Below, one piece after another: positions 18,468 to 41,536 of a stretch of 46,053 nt of DNA. The position numbers and the translations under genes are program-made. Below the pieces are notes generated by a model, which worked only from the letters and a program-made list of their open reading frames with translations, made no database searches and was not told where the DNA came from. Origin of the DNA: Candidatus Omnitrophota bacterium (GTDB lineage Bacteria > Omnitrophota > Gorgyraeia > Zapsychrales > Zapsychraceae); NCBI GenBank assembly GCA_020053475.1, contig JAGVNC010000027.1, forward strand, positions 1-46,053, written 5' to 3'. Positions within the stretch are counted from its first letter, which is position 1. Every line of letters starts with the position of its first letter.

Positions 18468-18645
18468 CAAATGGTAGTGCAAGGGTAAACCATTCGTAAG
18501 GATGGGACACAAAGCTATCCCGCCGTTTCTTAAGAAATTTAAGGAAAGCGGGACCCCGTCTTCCACTAAGAAATTAGATAGGCGGGGCAGGGCCTTACCC
18601 CGCCAGAAAAGAGTTGGGCGGGGAGGGTAGCCAGTTACCACGATC
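18468..18645 (+). ncRNA. Cyclic di-GMP-I (GEMM-I) riboswitch aptamer with greatly enlarged P3
   Basis: TGGTAGTGCAAGGGTAAACCATTCGTAAGGATGGGACACAAAGCTATCC ... GGGTAGCCAGTTACCACG; P1 TGGTA/TACCA, P2 CCATTC-GTAA-GGATGG with GNRA loop, P3 GCTATCC/GGGTAGC. Confidence 0.85.
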
Positions 18646-27977: not shown

Positions 27978-30350
27978 GTGACCCAATATTTTGCACATAG
28001 CGCCAACAAAGCTGGTAGTCCATGGGAGCCGCTGAAAGAACATCTCCAATGCGTTGCTAAGCGTGCGAGTGAATACGCCGATGTGTTTGGAGCCAAAGAA
28101 GAAGCCGCAATCGCTGGGTTATGGCATGACCTCGGCAAATATTCAGAATTATTCACCAAACGATTGAGAGGAGAAATGAGCGGGCTTGATCACTGGAGTA
28201 CGGGAGCATTGGCAACACTTATTAGTTTTAGAGATAAAGCTGTGGCGGCCGGTTTAGCTGTTCAGGGACATCATATTGGACTTCAAGAAGGTTTTAGCCA
28301 GAGAATCCGAGACGATCTTGATATCACCCGATTATCTGACCCGGCGACACACCCACTTGGATTGACGTTGACTGAACCTAACATCAAAGCCCTTCTTGAA
28401 CGTTTTAAAGCCGATGAATTTGTAATGCCTTCCGCTCCCCAAGTGCCACTTTATGATTTTGTTGCACCATCGGCTGCTGCTATGCTGGATGTGCGAATGC
28501 TTTTTTCTGCTTTGGTGGATGCTGATTATATTGAAACTGAAGCACATTTTGAGGGAAAGTCAGACGGGACAAAGGTGTATCGTTACGAAGGTCCAGGTCT
28601 GCAAGCCAAAAAGGCCTTTGAAATTCTATCGGTGCACTTGGAGGAGCTTGAACGCGTAACGAAATCTTCTCAAAGCGTGCGAAGAATTCGCAAACATCTG
28701 CTCGACACTTGCCTGAAAAAAGCTGGCTTGCCTACGGGTATTTTTACTCTTACGGCTCCAACTGGTGCGGGAAAAACATTGGCGATGCTGGCCTTCGCGT
28801 TAAAGCATTCCATCGCTAATACCAAAATCCGCCGTATTGTTATGGTCGTGCCATTTTTAAGTATTATTGAGCAAACGGCAAAAGTCTATCGACAGTTATT
28901 TGAACCTCATTTGGGGTCGCTTTACATTCTTGAACATCATAGTCTCGTTGGGGCAAGTAGAGAAGGGCGTGGAGATCAATTGAATCTGGATAATGAAGAG
29001 GAGGCCCGTCGTTTGGCTCGGCTATTGGCGGAAAATTGGGATGCGCCGCTGGTCATCACAACAAGTGTACAGCTTTTTGAGTCACTTTTTGCCAATTCAC
29101 CTGCCAAGTGCAGGAAACTGCACCGCCTTGCCGACAGTATTATCCTGTTCGATGAAGTTCAGACGCTTCCGTCTCGTATCGTGATTCCTTCATTAGCCGC
29201 TTTGTCGCGCTTTACAGAACGCTACGGTTGTACGGTTGTTTTCTCAACAGCTACGCAGCCAGCCTTTGATCACCTAAGCGAGAAAGTGAAACCATACGCA
29301 ACAACAGGTTGGCGTCCCCAGAATATTGTGGAAGATTCACTATCTATTTTTAATCAGGCGCGTCGGGTCCAAATTGATTGGCAAGTTGAGCAAACTCGTT
29401 CTTGGGAGTCCGTTGCCGGAGACTTGGCAAAAAATGAAAATTCGCAGTCTCTTTGCATTGTGAATCTAAAACGACACGCGCAAATACTCACAATGCATTT
29501 GTACAAATTAATAGATAAAGACGGGTTATTCCACCTTTCCACGAACATGTGCCCTGCTCACCGCGTGAAAGTTTTGAAAGAAGTTTGCGTGCGGCTCAGA
29601 CCAGACAATTTGCGTCCGTGTCGTTTAATTTCGACTCAATGTGTTGAGGCTGGTGTGGATATCGATTTCCCCGTTGCCTGGCGCGCCTTCGGGCCGCTTG
29701 ATGCTATCGCCCAAGCTGCTGGACGCTGTAATAGGGAGGGGCGGCTGGACGGCCTTGGCCGAATGGTTGTTTTTCTACCTGAAAAAGAACATGATAGGGA
29801 ATACCTCTATCCACCTGGTGGCTATAAGCAGGCGACGGAGACTACAAGAACGCTATTTGAGGAAAAAAAGAATGAGGCTTTTAGAAAAGGTATTTCTTTC
29901 GAGAATATTTTTGACATTTACGATCCTGAGTTATTCAATCAATACTACAGATTGCTTTACAGTTTGACTCGCGCAACTGAATTGGATCTCGATCTCGAGG
30001 ATGCATTGCAACGGCGTTCTTTTGTGGATGTGGCCCAGCATTACCGTTTGATTGGTCCAAGTATCAATGTGCTCGTGCCCTATTCGGATGAAATTGATTT
30101 ATTTGAATCATTAAAGAGGCGGCTCGATAAGGAGGGGCGATTAACGCGTCAATGGATCCAGGACGCGAGACCACTGACCGTCAGTTTGTACCGTCCTAAA
30201 AGCGGTGATACTGTTTGGAATTATCTTTATCCTGTGCCTTTGGGATGTGGTGAACAAGCCGACGACTGGTTTATTTATTTAAACAAAGAAGATTACGATT
30301 CGTTGCTTGGTCTCAAACCGCCTGATGAGGGTGGAGCGTGGATGACATAA
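27978..30350 (+). CDS. cas3: CRISPR-associated helicase/nuclease Cas3 (HD + DEAH), type I-C
   Basis: GLWHDLGKYSELF HD, LTAPTGAGKTLAMLAFAL Walker A, ILFDEVQTLP, STQCVEAGVDIDFPVAWR; GTG start. Confidence 0.93.
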   Translation: MTQYFAHSANKAGSPWEPLKEHLQCVAKRASEYADVFGAKEEAAIAGLWHDLGKYSELFTKRLRGEMSGLDHWSTGALATLISFRDKAVAAGLAVQGHHIGLQEGFSQRIRDDLDITRLSDPATHPLGLTLTEPNIKALLERFKADEFVMPSAPQVPLYDFVAPSAAAMLDVRMLFSALVDADYIETEAHFEGKSDGTKVYRYEGPGLQAKKAFEILSVHLEELERVTKSSQSVRRIRKHLLDTCLKKAGLPTGIFTLTAPTGAGKTLAMLAFALKHSIANTKIRRIVMVVPFLSIIEQTAKVYRQLFEPHLGSLYILEHHSLVGASREGRGDQLNLDNEEEARRLARLLAENWDAPLVITTSVQLFESLFANSPAKCRKLHRLADSIILFDEVQTLPSRIVIPSLAALSRFTERYGCTVVFSTATQPAFDHLSEKVKPYATTGWRPQNIVEDSLSIFNQARRVQIDWQVEQTRSWESVAGDLAKNENSQSLCIVNLKRHAQILTMHLYKLIDKDGLFHLSTNMCPAHRVKVLKEVCVRLRPDNLRPCRLISTQCVEAGVDIDFPVAWRAFGPLDAIAQAAGRCNREGRLDGLGRMVVFLPEKEHDREYLYPPGGYKQATETTRTLFEEKKNEAFRKGISFENIFDIYDPELFNQYYRLLYSLTRATELDLDLEDALQRRSFVDVAQHYRLIGPSINVLVPYSDEIDLFESLKRRLDKEGRLTRQWIQDARPLTVSLYRPKSGDTVWNYLYPVPLGCGEQADDWFIYLNKEDYDSLLGLKPPDEGGAWMT

Positions 30351-30365
30351 AGGTCAGGCTAATAC

Positions 30366-30391
30366 AAAAGGGGGACAATAGTCCCCCTTTT
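30366..30391. terminator. Bidirectional intrinsic terminator between cas3 and the minus-strand crRNA-like gene
   Basis: AAAAGGGGGAC-AATA-GTCCCCCTTTT, perfect 11-bp stem. Confidence 0.85.
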
Positions 30392-30412
30392 GATTTAAAA
30401 ACACTAAATTTT

Positions 30413-30444
30413 GTTTCAATCCACGCGTTTCTATTAGACGCGAC
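30413..30444 (-). repeat. Orphan degenerate type I-C CRISPR repeat
   Basis: 24/32 identity to array repeat; first 6 and last 15 nt identical; stem changes C7-G17 to T7-A17 and C9-G15 to T9-A15. Confidence 0.85.
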
Positions 30445-30451
30445 TATAGAT

Positions 30452-30479
30452 ATAATAGCAAAAAATTTAAATGTTGCAA
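30452..30479 (-). promoter_or_regulatory. Promoter of the crRNA-like RNA
   Basis: TTGCAA (30479-30474), 16-nt spacer, TATTAT (30457-30452); predicted start at the first base of the repeat. Confidence 0.55.
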
Positions 30480-30503
30480 TATAAAAACAATATATTTTGA
30501 ATG

Positions 30504-30532
30504 TTGACAATTCCTGATTTTCTTATTAATAT
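30504..30532 (+). promoter_or_regulatory. Promoter of the NYN gene
   Basis: TTGACA-N17-TAATAT. Confidence 0.7.
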
Positions 30533-30574
30533 AATCGTAAGTATTCATTAGGATCATTGAAACGAAGGGTGTTT

Positions 30575-31066
30575 ATGATCAATAAATCCAACAATTTTGC
30601 TTTTCTCGACAGTCAGAATCTCAATTTGGGGATTAAACAGCAAGGCTGGATCCTCGACTTTAAAAGGTTCCGGGTTTATCTTCAAGAGAAGTACGGGATT
30701 TCAAAGGCTTTTTTGTTTATCGGTTATATTCCGACGAATCAGAGCTTGTACACGGCTTTGCAGTCGTTCGGCTATATCCTTGTTTTTAAACCGACACTAC
30801 AGGGGGCAAAGGGGAAGATCAAGGGCAATGTCGACGCGGAATTGGTGTTACATGCTATGAAGGAGTTGCCGCATTATGACAAAGCGTTAATTGTTTCCGG
30901 AGACGGGGATTTTGCTTGCTTGATCGAATATTTGAACAAGATGAAAAAGCTCTTAAATTTGATGATTCCCGATCAAGGCCAATATTCATCGCTTTTAAGA
31001 AAATTTAATGCGGAGATTATTTTTATGAATAATTTGCGCGCAAAATTGGAATATCACCAGCCATAA
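30575..31066 (+). CDS. NYN-domain (LabA/DUF88-like, PIN-superfamily) putative RNase
   Basis: NFAFLDSQNLNLGI, GNVDAELVLHAMKE, ALIVSGDGDFACLIEYL; ATG at 30575 with GAAGGG upstream is better than the TTG at 30557. Confidence 0.85.
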   Translation: MINKSNNFAFLDSQNLNLGIKQQGWILDFKRFRVYLQEKYGISKAFLFIGYIPTNQSLYTALQSFGYILVFKPTLQGAKGKIKGNVDAELVLHAMKELPHYDKALIVSGDGDFACLIEYLNKMKKLLNLMIPDQGQYSSLLRKFNAEIIFMNNLRAKLEYHQP

Positions 31067-31160
31067 AAAAAGAGAGGCATTGCCGCGGGACGGAACCCTT
31101 TGGATAGCCTCTCATCGTGATACATTGTAAATATACTACGTTTTTCACGTAAGTCAAGGG
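31065..31160 (-). repeat. 96-bp direct repeat copy A with minus-strand promoter/operator and hairpin + T7 terminator
   Basis: Identical by eye to 31399-31494. Confidence 0.9.
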
Positions 31161-31175
31161 GAAAACCCCTTTTTT
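31158..31175 (+). terminator. Probable short terminator after NYN gene
   Basis: GGGG-AAAA-CCCC followed by TTTTTT. Confidence 0.5.
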
Positions 31176-31193
31176 CCTCCACTATTTCGGTTC

Positions 31194-31364
31194 CTAGCCG
31201 GAGCGATGTTTGCGGTACAACTGCAAGAGGTACGCGCTAACGTTATCCAGCCCGGCGGCCTTGGCGTCGGACTCGATTTGGGCTTTGTCAGTCGCCGTTG
31301 CCCGGATAGTTATCCATTCGGATTTTATTTTTTTAGTTCTGGGTGCGGCTTTTGGGTTTTGCAT
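31194..31364 (-). CDS. Small ribbon-helix-helix-like protein, 56 aa (absent from ORF track)
   Basis: AAGGAG then ATG: MQNPKAAPRTKKIKSEWITIRATATDKAQIESDAKAAGLDNVSAYLLQLYRKHRSG*. Confidence 0.7.
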   Translation of the reverse strand: MQNPKAAPRTKKIKSEWITIRATATDKAQIESDAKAAGLDNVSAYLLQLYRKHRSG

Positions 31365-31398
31365 TTTAGCTCCTTTTTATAATTTATTTGCCTCAACA

Positions 31399-31494
31399 AA
31401 AAAAAGAGAGGCATTGCCGCGGGACGGAACCCTTTGGATAGCCTCTCATCGTGATACATTGTAAATATACTACGTTTTTCACGTAAGTCAAGGG
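31399..31494 (-). repeat. 96-bp direct repeat copy B (promoter/leader of the 56-aa ORF)
   Basis: Minus strand TTGACT-N16-TATATT, TACGT-N5-ACGTA operator in spacer, GAGAGGC...GCCTCTC hairpin then T tract. Confidence 0.85.
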
Positions 31495-31552
31495 ATGAAT
31501 TTAGTAGAATTCGGAATGCTTTCATGGACTTGAATCGAAAGGAGTAAGGTAG

Positions 31553-32344
31553 ATGAAAATATCCTCTAAACCCCAAATACTCGAAGTTTGGGGCGAGTTT
31601 GCTTGTTTTTCGCGCCCTGAATTAAAAGTAGAACGTTTTAGTTATCCCATTATTACCCCCAGCGCGGCGCGGGGGATTTTTGACGCGATTTATTGTAAAC
31701 CTAACAGAAATCCGGTTGAGGCGCAGTTTCGCTGGCAGATTACGAAGATCGAAATGCTTGCGCCCATCGCTTATATTGCCCTGCGGCGCAATGAAGTGAA
31801 GGAGAAAATTGCTCTTGGTACGAAAACAGACCCAACAAAGTATGTCGGAGATTGGTTAGAAGGAATTGCCATGCCCGATCTTATATATGCAGACGCGGAT
31901 AAGGATTTTAGTGGAAATGATACAAAAGGTCGCACCCAGCGGCAAACCATGGCGCTTAAAAATGTGCGGTATCGTCTGACTGCTGAAATACGTCCCTTCC
32001 CTGGGCATGAAGACAAACAGCAGGCGCTTGAAGCGCAGTTCCGGCGGCGTGCCTCTCACGGGAAATGCTTTCATCAGCCGTGCATGGGCTGCCGTGAATT
32101 CCCGGCTTATTTTGAGTTGAAGGAGGTTGGTGAGGAATTGAGTGCGGTGGTTGATTATTCCCAAGATATCGGATGGATGCTCTATGATGTCTTCGACTTG
32201 CGCCGTCCCGGTTTGCCGTTGATGGAAGGAAAGAAGCCGTTTATTTCTCTGTTTCACGCGCAGATTGAGAAAGGCGTACTCGACGTTCCCGATTTCGACA
32301 GCCCCGAAGTTCTGAAACCCGAACAGGAGGCCGCCCATGCTTAA
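31553..32344 (+). CDS. cas5c: CRISPR-associated protein Cas5, type I-C (Cas5c/d)
   Basis: LEVWGEFACFSRPELKVERFSYPIITPSAARGIFDAIYCKP. Confidence 0.93.
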   Translation: MKISSKPQILEVWGEFACFSRPELKVERFSYPIITPSAARGIFDAIYCKPNRNPVEAQFRWQITKIEMLAPIAYIALRRNEVKEKIALGTKTDPTKYVGDWLEGIAMPDLIYADADKDFSGNDTKGRTQRQTMALKNVRYRLTAEIRPFPGHEDKQQALEAQFRRRASHGKCFHQPCMGCREFPAYFELKEVGEELSAVVDYSQDIGWMLYDVFDLRRPGLPLMEGKKPFISLFHAQIEKGVLDVPDFDSPEVLKPEQEAAHA

Positions 32345-34142
32345 TTTATTGATTGATTACGCAAAAACGCACGGTTTAACTATTGAACCTGGTTTCAAAC
32401 CTAAAACGGTCCGCTGGGCAATTGTTTGCGATAAAGCCGGACGCTTTCTTAATGTTCAGGAATTGGGCAATTCTGATGACAAAAAGAACAGGGGCCAAAT
32501 TTTCTCTGTATGTCCTGACCTTTCACAGCCTGAGATGAAGGCGGGCGGTTCCGGATGCCGGCATTTTCTGGTGGATAATGTTGAGGTCGTTACCTTACTT
32601 GGTAAAGAGGGCGACGTATCCGGTGATAAGAAGGCCAAAGCCAAACATGATTTTTTTGTTTCACTTCTACGGCAAGGAGCGAACGCGATGAAAGTACTCG
32701 ATAATCTCGCAGATCTTTTGGATTCAGAGGATGCGCTCTCTGCAATCCAACGGGCGTTTGCCGCGAAACGCTTTAAACCGACGTATAGTGTAACGTTCGC
32801 CATTACCGGGCGTGTGCCGATGTTTTTGGTTGAAGACAATGCTTGGCACGACTGGTGGCGAGGCTTCCGCCAATCCCTGCTTGCCGGGAAATCCGCAAAG
32901 AGAAGAGGGTCTTCTAAAACAGTTTCAGATCAGATTTCCATGAACAAATCGATGCGCTGTTTTGCCAGTGGTGGATTTGTGGAACCCGCATCAACTCATC
33001 CTAAAATCGAAGGATTGTCTGATGTCGGCGGATTGTCCATGGGGGATGTCCTGGCGGGATTTAAACAGGAATCTTTTTGTTCATATTTTCTGATTCAATC
33101 AGAAAATGCCGCTGTCTCCGGAGACATGGCCGCGGCTTATCGCGGTGGCTTGAATGATTTAATCAAAAATCATTCACGGCGTTTGACCAGTGCCAAAGTT
33201 GTTCACTGGTATGCGGGTAAGAAGGAAGTTCCCAATGAACTGGATCCATTAAACTGGCTTGTCGATGTTGAGGATACCGATACGGCTGAGCGTGACGCTC
33301 AGAACAGGGCACGTTCTTTGCTGGATTCCATTCGCTCTGGTGAACGTTCGGAACTGTTGCATTATCGTTTCTACTCATTGACGTTATCGGGAGCTTCCGG
33401 CCGCGTTATGATCCGTGATTGGATTGAGGGGCAGTTTGGGGAATTGGCCGCGAATATTGATGCGTGGTTCAGTGATCTCGCCATTGTCCGGCGAGACGGA
33501 GACACACTTGCCAAGCGTCCCAAATTTCTGGCAGTTTTGGGCGGACTTGTTCGCGAATTGAAGGATATTCCTCCTCCCGTTGAAGCAAAGCTTTGGCGTG
33601 TGGCCGTTCGCAAAGAACCGATTCCAGAGTTCGTTATGGCCCAGGCGCTTTCCCGTGTCAAAGTGGATGTTATTCAAGATGAACCCATGAGCCATGCCCG
33701 CATGGGATTACTAAAAGCCTATCACATAAGGAAAGGAGACAAGAATATGCAGCCTTACTTAAATGAGGACCATCCAAATCCGGCGTATCATTGCGGGAGG
33801 TTGATGGCAATGTATGCCGACCTGCAGTATGCGGCGTTGGGAGACGTAGGTGCCGGTGTGATTCAGCGCTATTATGCCTCCGCCAGTGCCACCCCCGCAC
33901 TGATTCTCGGGCGGCTCAGCCGCGGCAGCCAGTTCCATCTTAACAAGCTGGAGGGAGGCCTTGCGCATTGGTACGAGCAACGTTTGGCTTCCATTTGGGG
34001 GCGTATTCAAGACGCACCTCCGAAAGTTTTGACGCTTGAAGAACAAAGTCTTTTTGCCTTAGGATACTATCAGCAAAAGGCAGCCCCGCGAAAGAGTGCT
34101 AGTGATAATAATCAGCAACAATCTAATGTGAAGGAGAAATAA
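32337..34142 (+). CDS. cas8c: CRISPR-associated protein Cas8c/Csd1
   Basis: Position between cas5c and cas7c; [46 protein letters not shown]. Confidence 0.9.
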
Positions 34143-34144
34143 TT

Positions 34145-35128
34145 ATGATTACACCTATCGCCAACCGTTATGAATTTCTATTTCTTTTCGACTGTCAGAA
34201 CGGTAACCCTAACGGTGACCCGGATGCCGGCAACGCCCCTCGCATGGATCCGCAAGACATGCGTGGTCTAGTTTCCGACGTTGCCATTAAGAGACGCATT
34301 CGTAATTACGTGCAGGTCAGTCGAGGCAACGAGCCGCCTTATTCCATATTTGTGGAACATGCAACAAACCTGAACAGGCCTATTGCTAAGGCCCATGAGG
34401 AGACCGGTGGTCTCCCTGATGAAAAGAAAGGTGCAGGAAAGGATAAGGTGGAGGCGGCCAAACAATGGGTTTGTCGCAATTTTTATGATGTGCGTGCTTT
34501 TGGTGCTGTGATGAGTACTGGAGCTAACGCTGGCCAGGTGCGTGGTCCTGTTCAAGTCGCATTTTCACGTTCAGTGGATCCAATATTGCCTCTTGACGCT
34601 TCAATTACCCGCATGGCTGTTACGGAAAATGTTAAAGGAATCAGATCCAGTGCTGAAATTAAAAAATGGGAGGATGATCAACCAGAAGATAAACTCCGAA
34701 CCATGGGTCGTAAATCATTGATTCCTTATGGCCTTTATATCGGCAAAGGATTCATCAGCGCTAACTTGGCTGACCCAGTTCATGGCGGCACGGGTTTTTC
34801 AGAGGACGATCTAAAATTGCTTTTTGAAGCGATTCTTAACATGTATGAGCATGATCGTTCCAGCAGCAAGGGATTGATGACCGTTCATCCCGAATATACG
34901 TTCGTCTTCAAGCACGTTGGCACAGACAAAGACAAAGAGCAGCGTGCCAGGCAAGCCAAGCTTGGCTGTGCTCCAGCCCATAAACTTTTTGACTTGGTGG
35001 AAAGCAAGATTCCCCATATCAAAGAGCCCCGGTCAATCAAAGACTATGGCAAGTTGCCAACTCTGGAAGAGATCCGATTGGCATTACCCGTAGGTATGGA
35101 AGTCTATCGGATGGATAAATTGAATTGA
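34145..35128 (+). CDS. cas7c: CRISPR-associated protein Cas7/Csd2, type I-C
   Basis: [50 protein letters not shown]. Confidence 0.95.
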
Positions 35129-35151: not shown

Positions 35152-35739
35152 ATGACCTTAAAACCTTCCATTTACCCCCTCAAACTCACCCTCTCCCACA
35201 CCCGTCCACCCATCTGGCGGAGGGTGGAGGTGCCGGCGGATATTTCGCTTTACCGTCTGGCGGCGGTCATCATAACGGCCATGGGCTGGTCCGGCGGGCA
35301 TTTGCACCAGTTTCGGATCGGAGAGGAATATTACGGCATTCCTCACGAAGATGATCTCTCGGAAACAATTGACGAACGGAAGGTATCGCTCAAAAGTATT
35401 GTCGACCAGGGAATTAAGAAATTCATTTTCGAATACGACTTCGGCGACGGCTGGGAGCACGTGGTCGAGTTTGAAGGGACCATAGAGCCGTCGAAAGGTG
35501 CCAAGTACCCGCGCTGTACCGCCGGCGCGCGGTGTTGTCCGCCTGAAGATTGCGGCGGCCCTCCGGGTTATGAGGATTTCCTGCAAGCGATCCGTGACCC
35601 AAAGCATCCTGAACACGAGTCCATGCGTGAATGGATCGGCGGGGATTTTGATCCAGAAAAATTTTATCTTAATGCCCTCTCTGATCTTGCCGACGCCTCG
35701 GAAAGCATGGAAGAAGAGTGGAATGAACATTTTGAATAA
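35152..35739 (+). CDS. Plasmid pRiA4b ORF-3 family protein
   Basis: LKLTLSHTRPPIWRRVEVPADISLYRLAAVIITAMGW...HLHQFRI, FEYDFGDGWEHVVEFEG. Confidence 0.9.
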   Translation: MTLKPSIYPLKLTLSHTRPPIWRRVEVPADISLYRLAAVIITAMGWSGGHLHQFRIGEEYYGIPHEDDLSETIDERKVSLKSIVDQGIKKFIFEYDFGDGWEHVVEFEGTIEPSKGAKYPRCTAGARCCPPEDCGGPPGYEDFLQAIRDPKHPEHESMREWIGGDFDPEKFYLNALSDLADASESMEEEWNEHFE

Positions 35740-35773
35740 AGAAAGGTCACAATTTCTCTCTTCTGAAAGATAA

Positions 35774-36058
35774 TTGGATGAAAAGGCAGTTGTCGAGGAA
35801 TCCTCGATAACTGCTTCGGACGGAAAAAAGTATAAAATGAAACATTACAGCCTCGAAGCGATCATCGCTGTAGGTTACAGGGTCAATTCCGCCCGCGGCA
35901 CTCAGTTTCGCATTTGGGCCACGGACCGGCTGAAAAGCTATATCCTCAAAGGTTTCGCAATCGATAAAGACAGGTTTATTAAAGGCTCGAAATTTGACGC
36001 GCGGTATTTTGATGAATTGCTCGAAGAGTGGCGGGTGGGGGCAAATAACTTAGCATAA
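35774..36058 (+). pseudogene. RhuM-family fragment
   Basis: SSITASDGKKYKMKHYSLEAIIAVGYRVNSARGTQFRIWATDRLKSYILKGFAIDKDRF...FDARYFDELLEEWR; N-terminal domain missing, in-frame stop just upstream, only a TTG start. Confidence 0.7.
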
Positions 36059-36070
36059 TGTCTCAGGCGT

Positions 36071-36100
36071 ACTCTGAAAAAGTCTTGACTTTTTCAGAGT
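36071..36100. promoter_or_regulatory. Perfect 14-bp inverted repeat over a TTGACT -35-like box, upstream of the AAA ATPase
   Basis: ACTCTGAAAAAGTC-TT-GACTTTTTCAGAGT. Confidence 0.75.
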
Positions 36101-36118
36101 ATAGTATAGACTTCAAGT

Positions 36119-37348
36119 ATGGATAAAAGAGCCCTTTACAAAGAGATATGGCGCCAGTTGTCCGCTGACAAATCTTTAGTGATCCTTGCCGGGCCGAGGC
36201 AGGCCGGTAAAACGACATTCGCCCGCGAGATCGCGGCAAAAGATTTTTCGGACACGGTCTATTTTAACTGGGACCTGCCGAAAGATAAAAGGCGGATCAT
36301 TGAAGACCCTGTTTTTTTCTCCAAAGAGCCCCGTGCCAGCGCTTCTTCCCGTCCGCTGGTCATTCTCGATGAAATTCATAAATACCGTGACTGGAAAAAT
36401 TACCTTAAGGGAATTTATGACCAGTTTGCCGGAGAGTACCAATTCCTTGTTACGGGCAGCGGCCGCCTGGAGTTTTCCCGTAAAGCGGGGGATTCGCTGG
36501 CCGGCCGGTTCCTTAAATTCCATATCTTTCCTTTCACGTTAGCGGAGCTTTCCGCCCGCCGAAAAACGCTGCGGGATTTCATGGACCATCCTTTGGCCGG
36601 CTTTGACGATTCTGCGGCTAAAGAGACGGCGTTGGCGTTTGGATCCCTTTGGGAGTTCAGCGGTTTCCCTGAACCTTTTATGAAGGCAAGAAAGAATTTT
36701 TGGTCGACATGGAGCACGGCCTACGGCCATCAGATTGTCCGCGATGACCTAAGGACTCTCGCCGACATCCGCAACCTCGACGTTGTTGAAACCCTTTTCG
36801 CGCTCGTGCCTTCCAGGGTGGGGAGCCCCTTGTCAATGAATAACCTGGCGGGAGACCTTCAGGTCGCTTTTGAAACCGTCAAAAATTGGCTTCTTCTTTT
36901 TGATTCGTTTTATCTGACGTTCCGCCTGAGCCCCTGGACGGCAAAAATTTCAAGGAGTATCCTTAAGGAAAAGAAAATCTATCTGTTCAATTTCCCGGTC
37001 ATCGAGGATGAGCCGGCGCGCTTTGAGAATCTGGCGGCCTTGGAATTCTTGCGGGCCGTTGAAACCTGGAATGATCAGGGGCTCGGCAAATTCAGCCTGC
37101 ATTATCTCAGGAACAAAGACAAGCAGGAGGTTGATTTTCTGCTGGCGGAAGGCAACCGGCCGTTCCTTTTGATCGAAACCAAGCTGTCGGATGAAACTCC
37201 GGCGACAAACCTCAGGGCCTTTCAAAATTTCCTGAATATCCCCGCCGTGCAGCTCATCAAAAAAGAAGGGGTCAATAAAATTTATAAGAACGGGAAAAAT
37301 GATATCTTGGTTGTGACGGCCCACCGCTGGCTGTCAGCGCTTCCGTAA
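36119..37348 (+). CDS. AAA ATPase with DUF4143 domain
   Basis: VILAGPRQAGKTTFAREIA, LVILDEIHKYRDWKNYLKGIYD, FLVTGSGRLEF, NKDKQEVDFLLAEGNRPFLLIETK. Confidence 0.9.
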   Translation: MDKRALYKEIWRQLSADKSLVILAGPRQAGKTTFAREIAAKDFSDTVYFNWDLPKDKRRIIEDPVFFSKEPRASASSRPLVILDEIHKYRDWKNYLKGIYDQFAGEYQFLVTGSGRLEFSRKAGDSLAGRFLKFHIFPFTLAELSARRKTLRDFMDHPLAGFDDSAAKETALAFGSLWEFSGFPEPFMKARKNFWSTWSTAYGHQIVRDDLRTLADIRNLDVVETLFALVPSRVGSPLSMNNLAGDLQVAFETVKNWLLLFDSFYLTFRLSPWTAKISRSILKEKKIYLFNFPVIEDEPARFENLAALEFLRAVETWNDQGLGKFSLHYLRNKDKQEVDFLLAEGNRPFLLIETKLSDETPATNLRAFQNFLNIPAVQLIKKEGVNKIYKNGKNDILVVTAHRWLSALP

Positions 37349-37372: not shown

Positions 37373-38005
37373 ATGTATCTCGAGGACGACCTTCTGCCCA
37401 TCTCCGCCCTTCAGCATCTTTTGTTCTGCGAGCGCCAGTGCGCGCTGATCCACATCGAGCAGGTGTGGGTCGAGAATATTTTCACGGCCCAGGGGCGGGT
37501 GATGCACGAGTGCGTGCACAGTGAGGCGGCCGAGAGCCGGCGGGACACGCGTGTTGAATTCGGAATGCCGGTGCGCTCTCTTCGGCTGGGGCTTATCGGA
37601 AAAACGGATGTGGTCGAATTTCACCTTATGCCGGATAAAAGCTGGCGGCCCTTTCCGGTCGAATATAAGCGCGGAAAAAAGAAACCGGACAACCGCGATA
37701 ATGTCCAGCTCTGCGCCCAGGCGTTGTGTTTGGAAGAAACGCTGGGGGCAAGCATTCCGTCCGGCGCCATCTTTTACGGCAAAGAGCGCCGCCGGACAGA
37801 CGTGGCATTTGACGCCGCATTGCGGGAAGAAACGGAAAGGACCGCGCGCCGTTTACGCGATCTGATCCAGTCAGGGCAGACCCCCAAGGCGGTTTATAAA
37901 CCGGAGTGCGACAGCTGTTCCTTGATCAACTATTGCCTTCCGAAAACAATGCAGAACGCGAAACCTGTCCGGCAATATTTTGATGAAATGATCCAACGTT
38001 TATGA
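37373..38005 (+). CDS. cas4: CRISPR-associated exonuclease Cas4
   Basis: PISALQHLLFCERQCALIHIEQVW, EYKRGKKK, CDSCSLINYCLP. Confidence 0.93.
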   Translation: MYLEDDLLPISALQHLLFCERQCALIHIEQVWVENIFTAQGRVMHECVHSEAAESRRDTRVEFGMPVRSLRLGLIGKTDVVEFHLMPDKSWRPFPVEYKRGKKKPDNRDNVQLCAQALCLEETLGASIPSGAIFYGKERRRTDVAFDAALREETERTARRLRDLIQSGQTPKAVYKPECDSCSLINYCLPKTMQNAKPVRQYFDEMIQRL

Positions 38006-39033
38006 AAAAACATCTTAACACTTTATTCGTGACGACCCAGGGGGCTTATCTTCACAAAGAAGGCGAGACTATTGTTGTTAAGATCGAGGATGAGGCCAAA
38101 TTAACACTCCCCATACATACGATCGGCGGGGTTGTGTGTTTCGGCCAGGTGGGGATGAGCCCGTATTTAATGGCGTTCTGCGCCGAGAATGACGTGGGGG
38201 TGAGTTTTCTGACGGAGACGGGAAGTTTTTTGGCCAAAGTGCAGGGGTTTGTTGCCGGCAACGTTTTATTGAGGAGGGAGCATTACCGCCGGGCGGACGA
38301 TACCGATACGAGCGTCAAGATCACCAAGTCTGTTTTAACGGCAAAGTTCGCCAACGCGCGTTCCGTTTTGCAAAGGGCGTTGAGAGACCACGGGCACAAG
38401 ATCAATGAAGCGGAAGTCGGCAAGGCCGCCGATCGGATCACGCAGTCTTTAAAACGCCTGGATATGCCTTTGGGCATGGATGAACTGCGGGGGCTGGAAG
38501 GGGACACGGCGCATTCTTATTTTCAGGTGTTCGATCATTTGATCGTTTCGCAGAAAGATGATTTTTCCTTCCATGAGCGCAGCCGCCGGCCGCCGTTGGA
38601 TAACGTGAACTGCCTGCTCTCTTTTATTTATACGATCCTGATGCACGATGTGCGATCAGCGCTGGAAGCTGTCGGGCTGGATTCCGCCGTCGGATTTCTT
38701 CACCGCGACCGCTCTGGCCGTCCGGGGCTGGCATTGGATATCATGGAAGAATTCCGGCCCTTTTTGGCGGACCGGTTGGTGCTTTCATTGATCAACCTCG
38801 GGCAGGTCCATAAAAAAGGTTTTCAAAAACATCAGTCGGGGGCGGTTTTAATGGATGATGAAACTCGTAAGACACTTCTGACCGCGTATCAAACGCGCAA
38901 GCAGGAAGAGATCGTTCATCCTTATTTGGAAGAAAAGGTCACGATAGGCATTTTGCCCCATATCCAGGCGCTCCTTTTGGCCAGGCACTTAAGGGGAGAT
39001 CTCGACGGGTATCCCGCGTTTATTTGGAAATGA
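38002..39033 (+). CDS. cas1: CRISPR-associated endonuclease Cas1, type I-C
   Basis: LNTLFVTTQGAYLHKEGETIVV, GLDSAVGFLHRDRSGRPGLALDIMEEFRP. Confidence 0.95.
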   Translation: MKKHLNTLFVTTQGAYLHKEGETIVVKIEDEAKLTLPIHTIGGVVCFGQVGMSPYLMAFCAENDVGVSFLTETGSFLAKVQGFVAGNVLLRREHYRRADDTDTSVKITKSVLTAKFANARSVLQRALRDHGHKINEAEVGKAADRITQSLKRLDMPLGMDELRGLEGDTAHSYFQVFDHLIVSQKDDFSFHERSRRPPLDNVNCLLSFIYTILMHDVRSALEAVGLDSAVGFLHRDRSGRPGLALDIMEEFRPFLADRLVLSLINLGQVHKKGFQKHQSGAVLMDDETRKTLLTAYQTRKQEEIVHPYLEEKVTIGILPHIQALLLARHLRGDLDGYPAFIWK

Positions 39034-39045
39034 AAGGAGGGCGGC

Positions 39046-39336
39046 GTGTTTGTTTTGGTAACTTATGACGTGGCTGTCACTGCGGAAGGCGGAGTAAGGC
39101 GTTTAAGGCGGGTGGCGCGCGCCTGCAAGGACTGGGGCCAAAGGGTCCAATTCTCCGTCTTTGAATGCATCGTTGATCCGGCGCAGTGGACAATGTTAAA
39201 GAATCGGCTGATGGAAGAAATGGACCAGGAAAAAGACAGCATGCGTTTTTACTTTTTGGGGTCGAACTGGGAGCGCAGGGTCGAACATGTCGGCGCCAAT
39301 AAACCGCTGGACCAGCAGGGCCCTTTGGTTGTTTAA
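39046..39336 (+). CDS. cas2: CRISPR-associated endoribonuclease Cas2
   Basis: FVLVTYDVAVTAEGGVRRLRRVARACKDWGQRVQFSVFEC. Confidence 0.95.
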   Translation: MFVLVTYDVAVTAEGGVRRLRRVARACKDWGQRVQFSVFECIVDPAQWTMLKNRLMEEMDQEKDSMRFYFLGSNWERRVEHVGANKPLDQQGPLVV

Positions 39337-39389: not shown

Positions 39390-39515
39390 AGCTTTTTAAT
39401 TTTATGAAGTAACGGATGTTGGGGAAGGGTGGTATGATATTTTCGTGGGGAAAAATAGGCGGTTCGTGGAAATGCCAAATTAAACCACTCGTAATAAATA
39501 AGTTATAAGAAGTAA
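39390..39515 (+). promoter_or_regulatory. CRISPR leader 1
   Basis: AT-rich region between cas2 and first repeat; last 55 nt are gaplessly alignable to 41430-41484. Confidence 0.75.
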
Positions 39516-39871
39516 GTCGCGCCCCATGCGGGCGCGTGGATTGAAACAAATCTTTTGAATTTATTGACCATATTTTCATTGTCGCGCCCCATGCGGGCGC
39601 GTGGATTGAAACGTTTTTAGGCGACGTGGCGGCGGAATTGAAACGTCGCGCCCCATGCGGGCGCGTGGATTGAAACCACGGACACCCGTGAAACTGTTAA
39701 CCCTTGTAGGTCGCGCCCCATGCGGGCGCGTGGATTGAAACAATGCCTGATCGGGTAAAAGGCTTTCCAGTTTAGGTCGCGCCCCATGCGGGCGCGTGGA
39801 TTGAAACATTAATCGCGGGGGTTAGGATGCAGGAAATTTGTCGCGCCCCATGCGGGCGCGTGGATTGAAAC
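39516..39871 (+). CRISPR. Type I-C CRISPR array: 6 x 32-nt repeats, 5 spacers of 32-34 nt
   Basis: GTCGCGCCCCATGCGGGCGCGTGGATTGAAAC at 39516, 39581, 39645, 39710, 39776, 39840, all identical. Confidence 0.98.
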
Positions 39872-41360: not shown

Positions 41361-41484
41361 GAAATTTTTGATGTAAATGACGTTGGGTTAAATTGAGATG
41401 AACTCCGCGATGATTTTTGATTAATGACAGGTTCGTGGAAAAGTCAAAATAAGTCTTTTGTATTAAATAAGTTGTAATAAGTGA
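41358..41484 (+). promoter_or_regulatory. Second, diverged CRISPR leader (leader 2)
   Basis: 43/55 identical, no gaps, to the repeat-proximal part of leader 1; weaker similarity further upstream. Confidence 0.75.
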
Positions 41485-41536
41485 GTCGCGCCCCATGCGC
41501 CTGCCTGACGACAGGCAGGGGCGCATAGACTGAAAC
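41485..41536 (+). repeat. Orphan CRISPR repeat interrupted by a 20-bp palindrome
   Basis: GTCGCGCCCCATGCG-[CCTGCCTGACGACAGGCAGG]-GGCGCATAGACTGAAAC; removing the insert gives 32 nt with 3 mismatches. Confidence 0.9.

Follow-up and report, generated by a model that had tools for sequence, protein, structure and literature searches.

A probable CreA/CreR-type crRNA-like gene that may direct type I-C Cascade to the promoter of an NYN ribonuclease gene in an Omnitrophota CRISPR locus

An uncultivated Omnitrophota bacterium carries, in its type I-C CRISPR locus, a degenerate repeat that lies outside the array; a short guide and a terminator follow it, and a plausible promoter precedes it. Judged from its sequence, this repeat–guide–terminator unit is a CreA/CreR-type crRNA-like gene. 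The guide partly matches a site between the promoter of its own gene and that of a divergently oriented gene for an NYN-domain ribonuclease, and by analogy with known systems the I-C Cascade carrying this RNA probably represses the divergent promoter pair. We hold with moderate confidence the full form of this reading, in which Cascade forms an incomplete R-loop at the site, represses both the NYN promoter and that of the RNA itself, and holds NYN down. What the DNA itself shows is the unit, the match and how rare it is, and the geometry; the rest of the account leans on analogy.

The window considered here is the whole stretch of 46,053 nt that was analysed; it comes from a genome of 2.03 Mb and contains a type I-C CRISPR locus. 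The cas3 gene, with HD and helicase domains (27978..30350, + strand; Pfam and NCBIfam), is followed by the complete set of I-C Cascade genes (31553..35128, +), namely cas5c (31553-32344), cas8c (32337-34142) and cas7 (34145-35128), with TIGR01876, TIGR01863 and TIGR02589 matches above cut-off. The Cas5c protein aligns with structures of Cas5c enzymes that process pre-crRNA. The cas4-cas1-cas2 genes (37373..39336, +; TIGR00372, TIGR03640 and TIGR01573, each above cut-off) precede a CRISPR array of six repeats and five spacers (39516..39871, +), which was delimited from the sequence and by pattern search and has the repeat GTCGCGCCCCATGCGGGCGCGTGGATTGAAAC. The interval between cas7 and cas4 (35152-37348) holds three non-cas genes: a PRiA4_ORF3-like gene, a RhuM N-terminal fragment and an AAA_14/DUF4143 gene. 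At 41430-41536 are the remains of another CRISPR leader with its repeat; about 60 nt of this leader resemble 39461-39515, and the repeat is broken by the palindrome CCTGCCTGACGACAGGCAGG. Elsewhere in the window, a c-di-GMP-I riboswitch at 18474-18533 scores barely over the Rfam threshold.

The crRNA-like gene lies on the minus strand between cas3 and the NYN gene. Its ectopic repeat, GTCGCGTCTAATAGAAACGCGTGGATTGAAAC (30413..30444), agrees with the array repeat at 24 of 32 nt, and all eight differences are confined to the central 11 nt, with the 5' end and the 15-nt 3' end (the handle half) intact. The stem is cut to 5 bp, and one compensatory change, from a C-G to a U-A pair, preserves pairing. 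As in CreA genes, a degenerate ectopic repeat of a co-resident CRISPR-Cas system has thus kept its handle and stem. Outside the array, GTGGATTGAAAC occurs in this repeat and nowhere else in the genome (pattern search). Directly 3' of the repeat is the 20-nt guide, or pseudo-spacer, AAAATTTAGTGTTTTTAAAT (30393..30412, −), followed by the terminator hairpin AAAAGGGGGACTATTGTCCCCCTTTT (30366..30392, −). This hairpin has a stable fold, is terminator-like on both strands and is shared with cas3, which runs in the opposite direction. A predicted promoter, TTGCAA-16-TATTAT (30452..30479, −; 9/12 in a consensus scan), would start the RNA at about the first base of the repeat. In predicted folds, a duplex of guide and repeat is slightly more stable than the canonical hairpin of the repeat (−28.9 vs −28.0 kcal/mol), and the stem of the canonical hairpin has a predicted probability of about 0.4. 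In Rfam, the RNA gives only sub-threshold noise, including a weak CRISPR-repeat match on the ectopic repeat. The exact repeat–guide sequence was not found in viral contigs, and a plasmid DNA search with the cas3-NYN intergenic region as query gave no match. A second degenerate repeat was considered at about 30557-30564 in the predicted NYN 5' leader, where ATTGAAAC equals the 3'-terminal bases of the I-C repeat; this match covers only 8 nt, shows no evident hairpin and is probably due to chance.

The guide pairs with a target, AAAATATATTGTTTTTATAT (protospacer; 30479..30498, −), at 17 of 20 positions, and this is the best TTC-flanked match genome-wide. The alignment had been proposed in an earlier note on this DNA, and a letter-by-letter check bears it out: the mismatches fall at positions 6, 9 and 18, pairing ends at position 21, and TTC directly precedes the target (30499..30501, −). 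The TTC-flanked match starts exactly at guide nt 1; the guide register shifted by −1 also gives 17 matches, but without a PAM. The same note called TTC the established type I-C PAM. This holds for other I-C systems (PMC10865793), but for the system itself the PAM is not derivable from the array spacers. When the five spacers were compared with IMG/VR, a single 20-nt seed match was found, and no PAM was inferred from it because its flank is GCA and the homology stops after about 21 nt.

Could the match have arisen by chance? Guide and target alike are about 90% A+T, and two AT-rich stretches of one intergenic region might simply resemble each other, a caution that the earlier note had itself attached to the match. 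Dinucleotide-shuffled guides, compared with the cas3-NYN intergenic region on both strands and in all registers, do not match equally well: P=0.002 for at least 17/20 with any PAM, 5e-4 with TTC, and 5e-5 with TTC plus seed positions 1-5, 7 and 8. For shuffled guides against the whole window, a best TTC match of at least 17 has P=0.005, and shuffling of the promoter region gives P=8e-4 with any PAM and 1e-4 with TTC. Genome-wide chance was gauged by a search for the pattern TTCAAAATNTAGTGNTTTTANAT with at most three mismatches, which returned the NYN-promoter target (one mismatch), the locus of the guide, and a TTG site with three mismatches. Leaving the guide aside, the target is thus the only TTC-flanked site at this level in the genome, and the reversed-pattern control gave 0 matches. 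Natural sequences behave in the same way. For 99 natural I-C spacers, taken from this genome and from related ones, the best TTC-flanked match is 11/20 in the intergenic region and, over the whole window, 14/20; 0 of 920 natural AT-rich 20-mers reach 16/20 with TTC in the intergenic region. The guide–target match is real, and goes beyond AT-richness. Chance is a weak explanation because the shuffles, the genome pattern search, the 99 spacers, the 920 20-mers and the exact register all disfavour it; although P is about 0.001-0.002 without the PAM, we rate it the least probable of the explanations considered. As in CreA, then, the guide shows partial complementarity, beside a valid PAM and above chance, to a neighbouring gene's promoter.

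The rarity of the match bears on a further explanation, in which the RNA is a Racr-like repeat mimic that sequesters Cas5c/Cas7 and has an incidental guide match. In a Racr, a promoter precedes a solitary repeat, and I-C immunity is inhibited by one such RNA of type I-C (PMC10651486); the mobile appearance of the NYN module would also suit such an inhibitor. However, Racr repeats sit on phages or mobile elements, whereas the ectopic repeat lies inside the cas operon and not in a phage or prophage, and the genome pattern search and the shuffled promoter region mark the guide match as too rare to be incidental. We regard this explanation as highly improbable. That the unit is instead the decayed remnant of a one-repeat array, its spacer long ago taken from the genome itself and its function lost, is less far-fetched but still unlikely. 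In favour of this are the degeneracy of the ectopic repeat, the imperfect match of the guide to DNA close by, which is what drift of a self-spacer would give, and another leader–repeat relic in the window at 41430-41536. Drift, however, would favour neither an intact handle half nor a stem saved by a compensatory change, neither a promoter nor a terminator, and it would not place two of the three mismatches at positions 6 and 18, which are not read in type I hybrids.

How might Cascade act at this site? The target sits between two divergent promoter-like sites. On one side is the predicted NYN promoter, TTGACA-17-TAATAT (30504..30532, +; 10/12 in a consensus scan), with its −35 element at 30504-30509, 2 bp past the PAM. 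On the other side, the −35 element of the crRNA-like RNA (TTGCAA, 30479-30474) shares its first base with the end of the 20-nt match and falls within a 34-nt Cascade footprint. Both positions had been pointed out in the earlier note and agree with the sequence and the consensus scan. At TTC-flanked sites, I-C Cascade that lacks Cas3 acts as a promoter repressor (PMC10865793), and by analogy Cascade bound at the target is expected to hinder both promoters. In the mechanism that we propose, Cas5c would cleave the transcript of the repeat–guide–terminator unit at the short hairpin of its repeat, and the processed RNA would be loaded into the resident I-C Cascade. This complex would then bind the partly matching, TTC-flanked site that separates the two divergent promoters. 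The mismatch at position 9 and the end of pairing at about 20 nt would keep the R-loop incomplete, and Cas3 would not be triggered. The bound Cascade would block the −35 element of NYN and, by its footprint, that of the RNA's own gene. The NYN ribonuclease would be held down while Cascade is intact, and would rise if Cascade were lost, titrated or inhibited. We infer expression, processing, binding, repression, the lack of cutting and any NYN toxicity from published CreA and I-C biology.

The earlier note had likewise read the site as one of Cascade repression. The crRNA-like gene, the above-chance match, its PAM and register, a mismatch pattern that fits an incomplete R-loop, and the geometry all agree with this reading, but position 9, which belongs to the seed in CreA, is mismatched. 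In CreA of H. hubeiense, pairing is needed at all of positions 1-5 and 7-11, and mutation of position 6 or 12 is harmless (PMC8501985); full seed pairing of this kind is not found here. The mismatch at position 9 may be offset by pairing at positions 10-17, 19 and 20. Moreover, a complete seed is not universal in CreA, because Acinetobacter I-F CreA lacks a canonical seed (PMC10097628).

What does the NYN promoter regulate? It might also feed cas5c-cas8c-cas7 by read-through, in which case the RNA would chiefly adjust Cascade levels, with NYN carried along as a passenger. This CreR-like autoregulation has Cascade repression in common with the preferred reading and differs in the unit regulated; we consider it a serious contender, if the less probable of the two. 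Shmakov et al. 2023 is said to be the main survey of CreR and other cas-regulating crRNA-like elements. Reviewed CreR RNAs repress cas promoters (PMC12737573). Eight ordinary I-C loci from plasmids served for comparison; in the seven with annotation, about 10-200 nt separate cas3 from cas5c, so about 1.2 kb is inserted here and NYN splits the normal operon. Furthermore, the predicted NYN promoter is the only promoter-like site on the + strand from 30330 to 31560 (consensus scan), and the autoregulation reading stays because no other such site lies ahead of cas5c. Nevertheless, regulation of NYN alone is tentatively favoured, because a terminator-like hairpin 3' of NYN (31156..31171, +; consensus scan) and two convergent small RNA genes precede cas5c and would part NYN from it. 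The earlier note had described the NYN locus without the convergent small RNA and the terminator-like hairpin that accompany NYN. The 96-nt identical copies of the small RNA gene also weigh against read-through, as they could hide an assembly misjoin between NYN and cas5c; the cas3–RNA–NYN junction is unaffected. The NYN promoter runs straight into NYN, which has a ribosome-binding site, and no separate small gene (creT) is seen.

The gene that would be held down under the preferred reading encodes a predicted ribonuclease of 163 aa with an NYN (PIN-like) domain (30575..31066, +; PF01936 E=7e-15; similarity to PDB 2qip, E=2e-11). Candidate acidic residues, read directly, are present at D12, D87 and D110/D112. 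In a profile search, the NYN domain stands alone in the protein, and the KilA-N domain typical of known CreP is absent. The first copy of the convergent small RNA gene (31062..31165, −) has the promoter TTGACT..TATATT and an RNA of about ATCACGATGAGAGGC...GCCTCTC, and its U-tract overlaps the NYN stop codon; the second copy (31396..31499, −) is 100% identical to it over 96 nt. Between the identical copies lies a small gene for a NikA-like mobilisation protein (31161-31398, −; PF21983 E=1e-7), which suggests a recent insertion or duplication. The NYN family is present in 32 of 386 genomes of the phylum, away from I-C repeats in the fetched loci, and a small RNA gene 3' of NYN, convergent and at the NYN stop codon, is conserved in about 30 genomes (L002-L006, L029-L056). 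In nearly all NYN-family loci of the phylum, the convergent RNA has a promoter CTTGACA...TATA.TT, a near-invariant ATCACGAT start and a U-tract, and its terminator lies across the NYN stop codon. The RNA is about 55 nt long and structured, with compensatory change at 6 of 11 stem pairs. A covariance model detects it in 39 of 386 phylum genomes, with two copies at the present locus; it also adjoins NYN in WOR-3/Stahlbacteria MAGs, and it has no Rfam match. Five of the 30 fetched loci with this RNA have no adjacent NYN match in the fetched flanks (L100, L102, L103, L118 and L121), and one lies at a contig end with the NYN tail only. At L121, the RNA is near an ORF6N/RhuM-type gene (named by eye). 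NYN and its convergent RNA have the look of a mobile module of two parts, which came to lie next to the ectopic repeat by insertion. A more tentative idea, which we think possible but doubtful, is that Cascade and the solitary crRNA-like RNA control this module within the cas operon, and that loss or inhibition of Cascade frees the RNA-cutting enzyme. A protein-toxin guard of CRISPR would then have been made from an unrelated mobile pair.

Does a similar arrangement occur elsewhere? A homologous repeat–NYN pair was not found in 386 phylum genomes, and in the fetched loci (6 GTDB loci and 32 phylum genomes) no ectopic I-C-like repeat that keeps its 3' end was seen beside NYN. Across other I-C loci (9 genomes of the order, 19 genomes of a phylum sample and 8 plasmid loci), an ectopic repeat was seen only in one genome of the same order, G016, where cas5c is preceded, at a distance of about 90 nt, by one sequence that resembles the I-C repeat (L020, 11164-11195). 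In G016, a block that looks like type III-B (Cmr-like; named by eye) lies between cas3 and cas5c and is followed by the repeat-like sequence. Cas5c could cut the leader that carries it. For this repeat, no TTC-flanked target within two mismatches of the extended seed was found; because it is without a convincing target, ectopic repeats need not have local targets.

What would be the implications of such control, if it is real? First, CRISPR-guided gene control would extend to an Omnitrophota type I-C locus, with a ribonuclease as the guarded gene. Second, it would suggest that a mobile gene landing by an ectopic repeat can become a guard or an effector. The target site is small, so the proposal is testable by moving the divergent promoter to a host with a known I-C Cascade. 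The NYN-linked small RNA, conserved across phyla and absent from Rfam, is a separate lead.

On present comparison with published systems, the locus is best filed as CreA/CreR-type Cascade-guided promoter control, here a putative variant aimed at an NYN ribonuclease in an I-C locus. CreA RNAs use the same TTC PAM and a seed at 1-5 and 7-11, and combine autoregulation with target repression; the one-repeat creA of H. hispanica consists of a repeat, a guide and then a terminator, a layout that the crRNA-like gene matches (PMC8501985). With CreTA of haloarchaeal I-B and Acinetobacter I-F systems (PMC8501985, PMC10097628), the locus shares a degenerate repeat, a short guide, a terminator and, by analogy, autoregulation. 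The partial seed match after TTC recalls I-B, and the position in the gap between cas3 and the effector genes recalls I-F, where CreTA homologues were sought and found in this gap (PMC10097628). However, CreT is a small toxic RNA, none of which is evident here, position 9 is mismatched, and pairing is longer (to nt 20). Like CreR and other cas-regulating crRNA-like RNAs (PMC12737573), the RNA lies beside a cas operon and is aimed at a promoter able to feed Cascade genes, but NYN is the first downstream gene and a terminator-like hairpin lies ahead of cas5c. The type III-B locus of Bacteroides fragilis also encodes an NYN ribonuclease inside a CRISPR locus, although that enzyme is beside cas6 in a Cmr system and has a proposed role in crRNA trimming (PMC11346440), whereas the NYN family here is otherwise away from I-C repeats in the loci seen and has its own convergent RNA. 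Finally, in CrePA (PMC12737573), as here by analogy, a crRNA-like RNA directs Cascade to the promoter of a repressed protein gene; the known CreP is typically a KilA-N protein that interferes with FtsZ, whereas the protein here is a predicted NYN ribonuclease and the locus is of type I-C.
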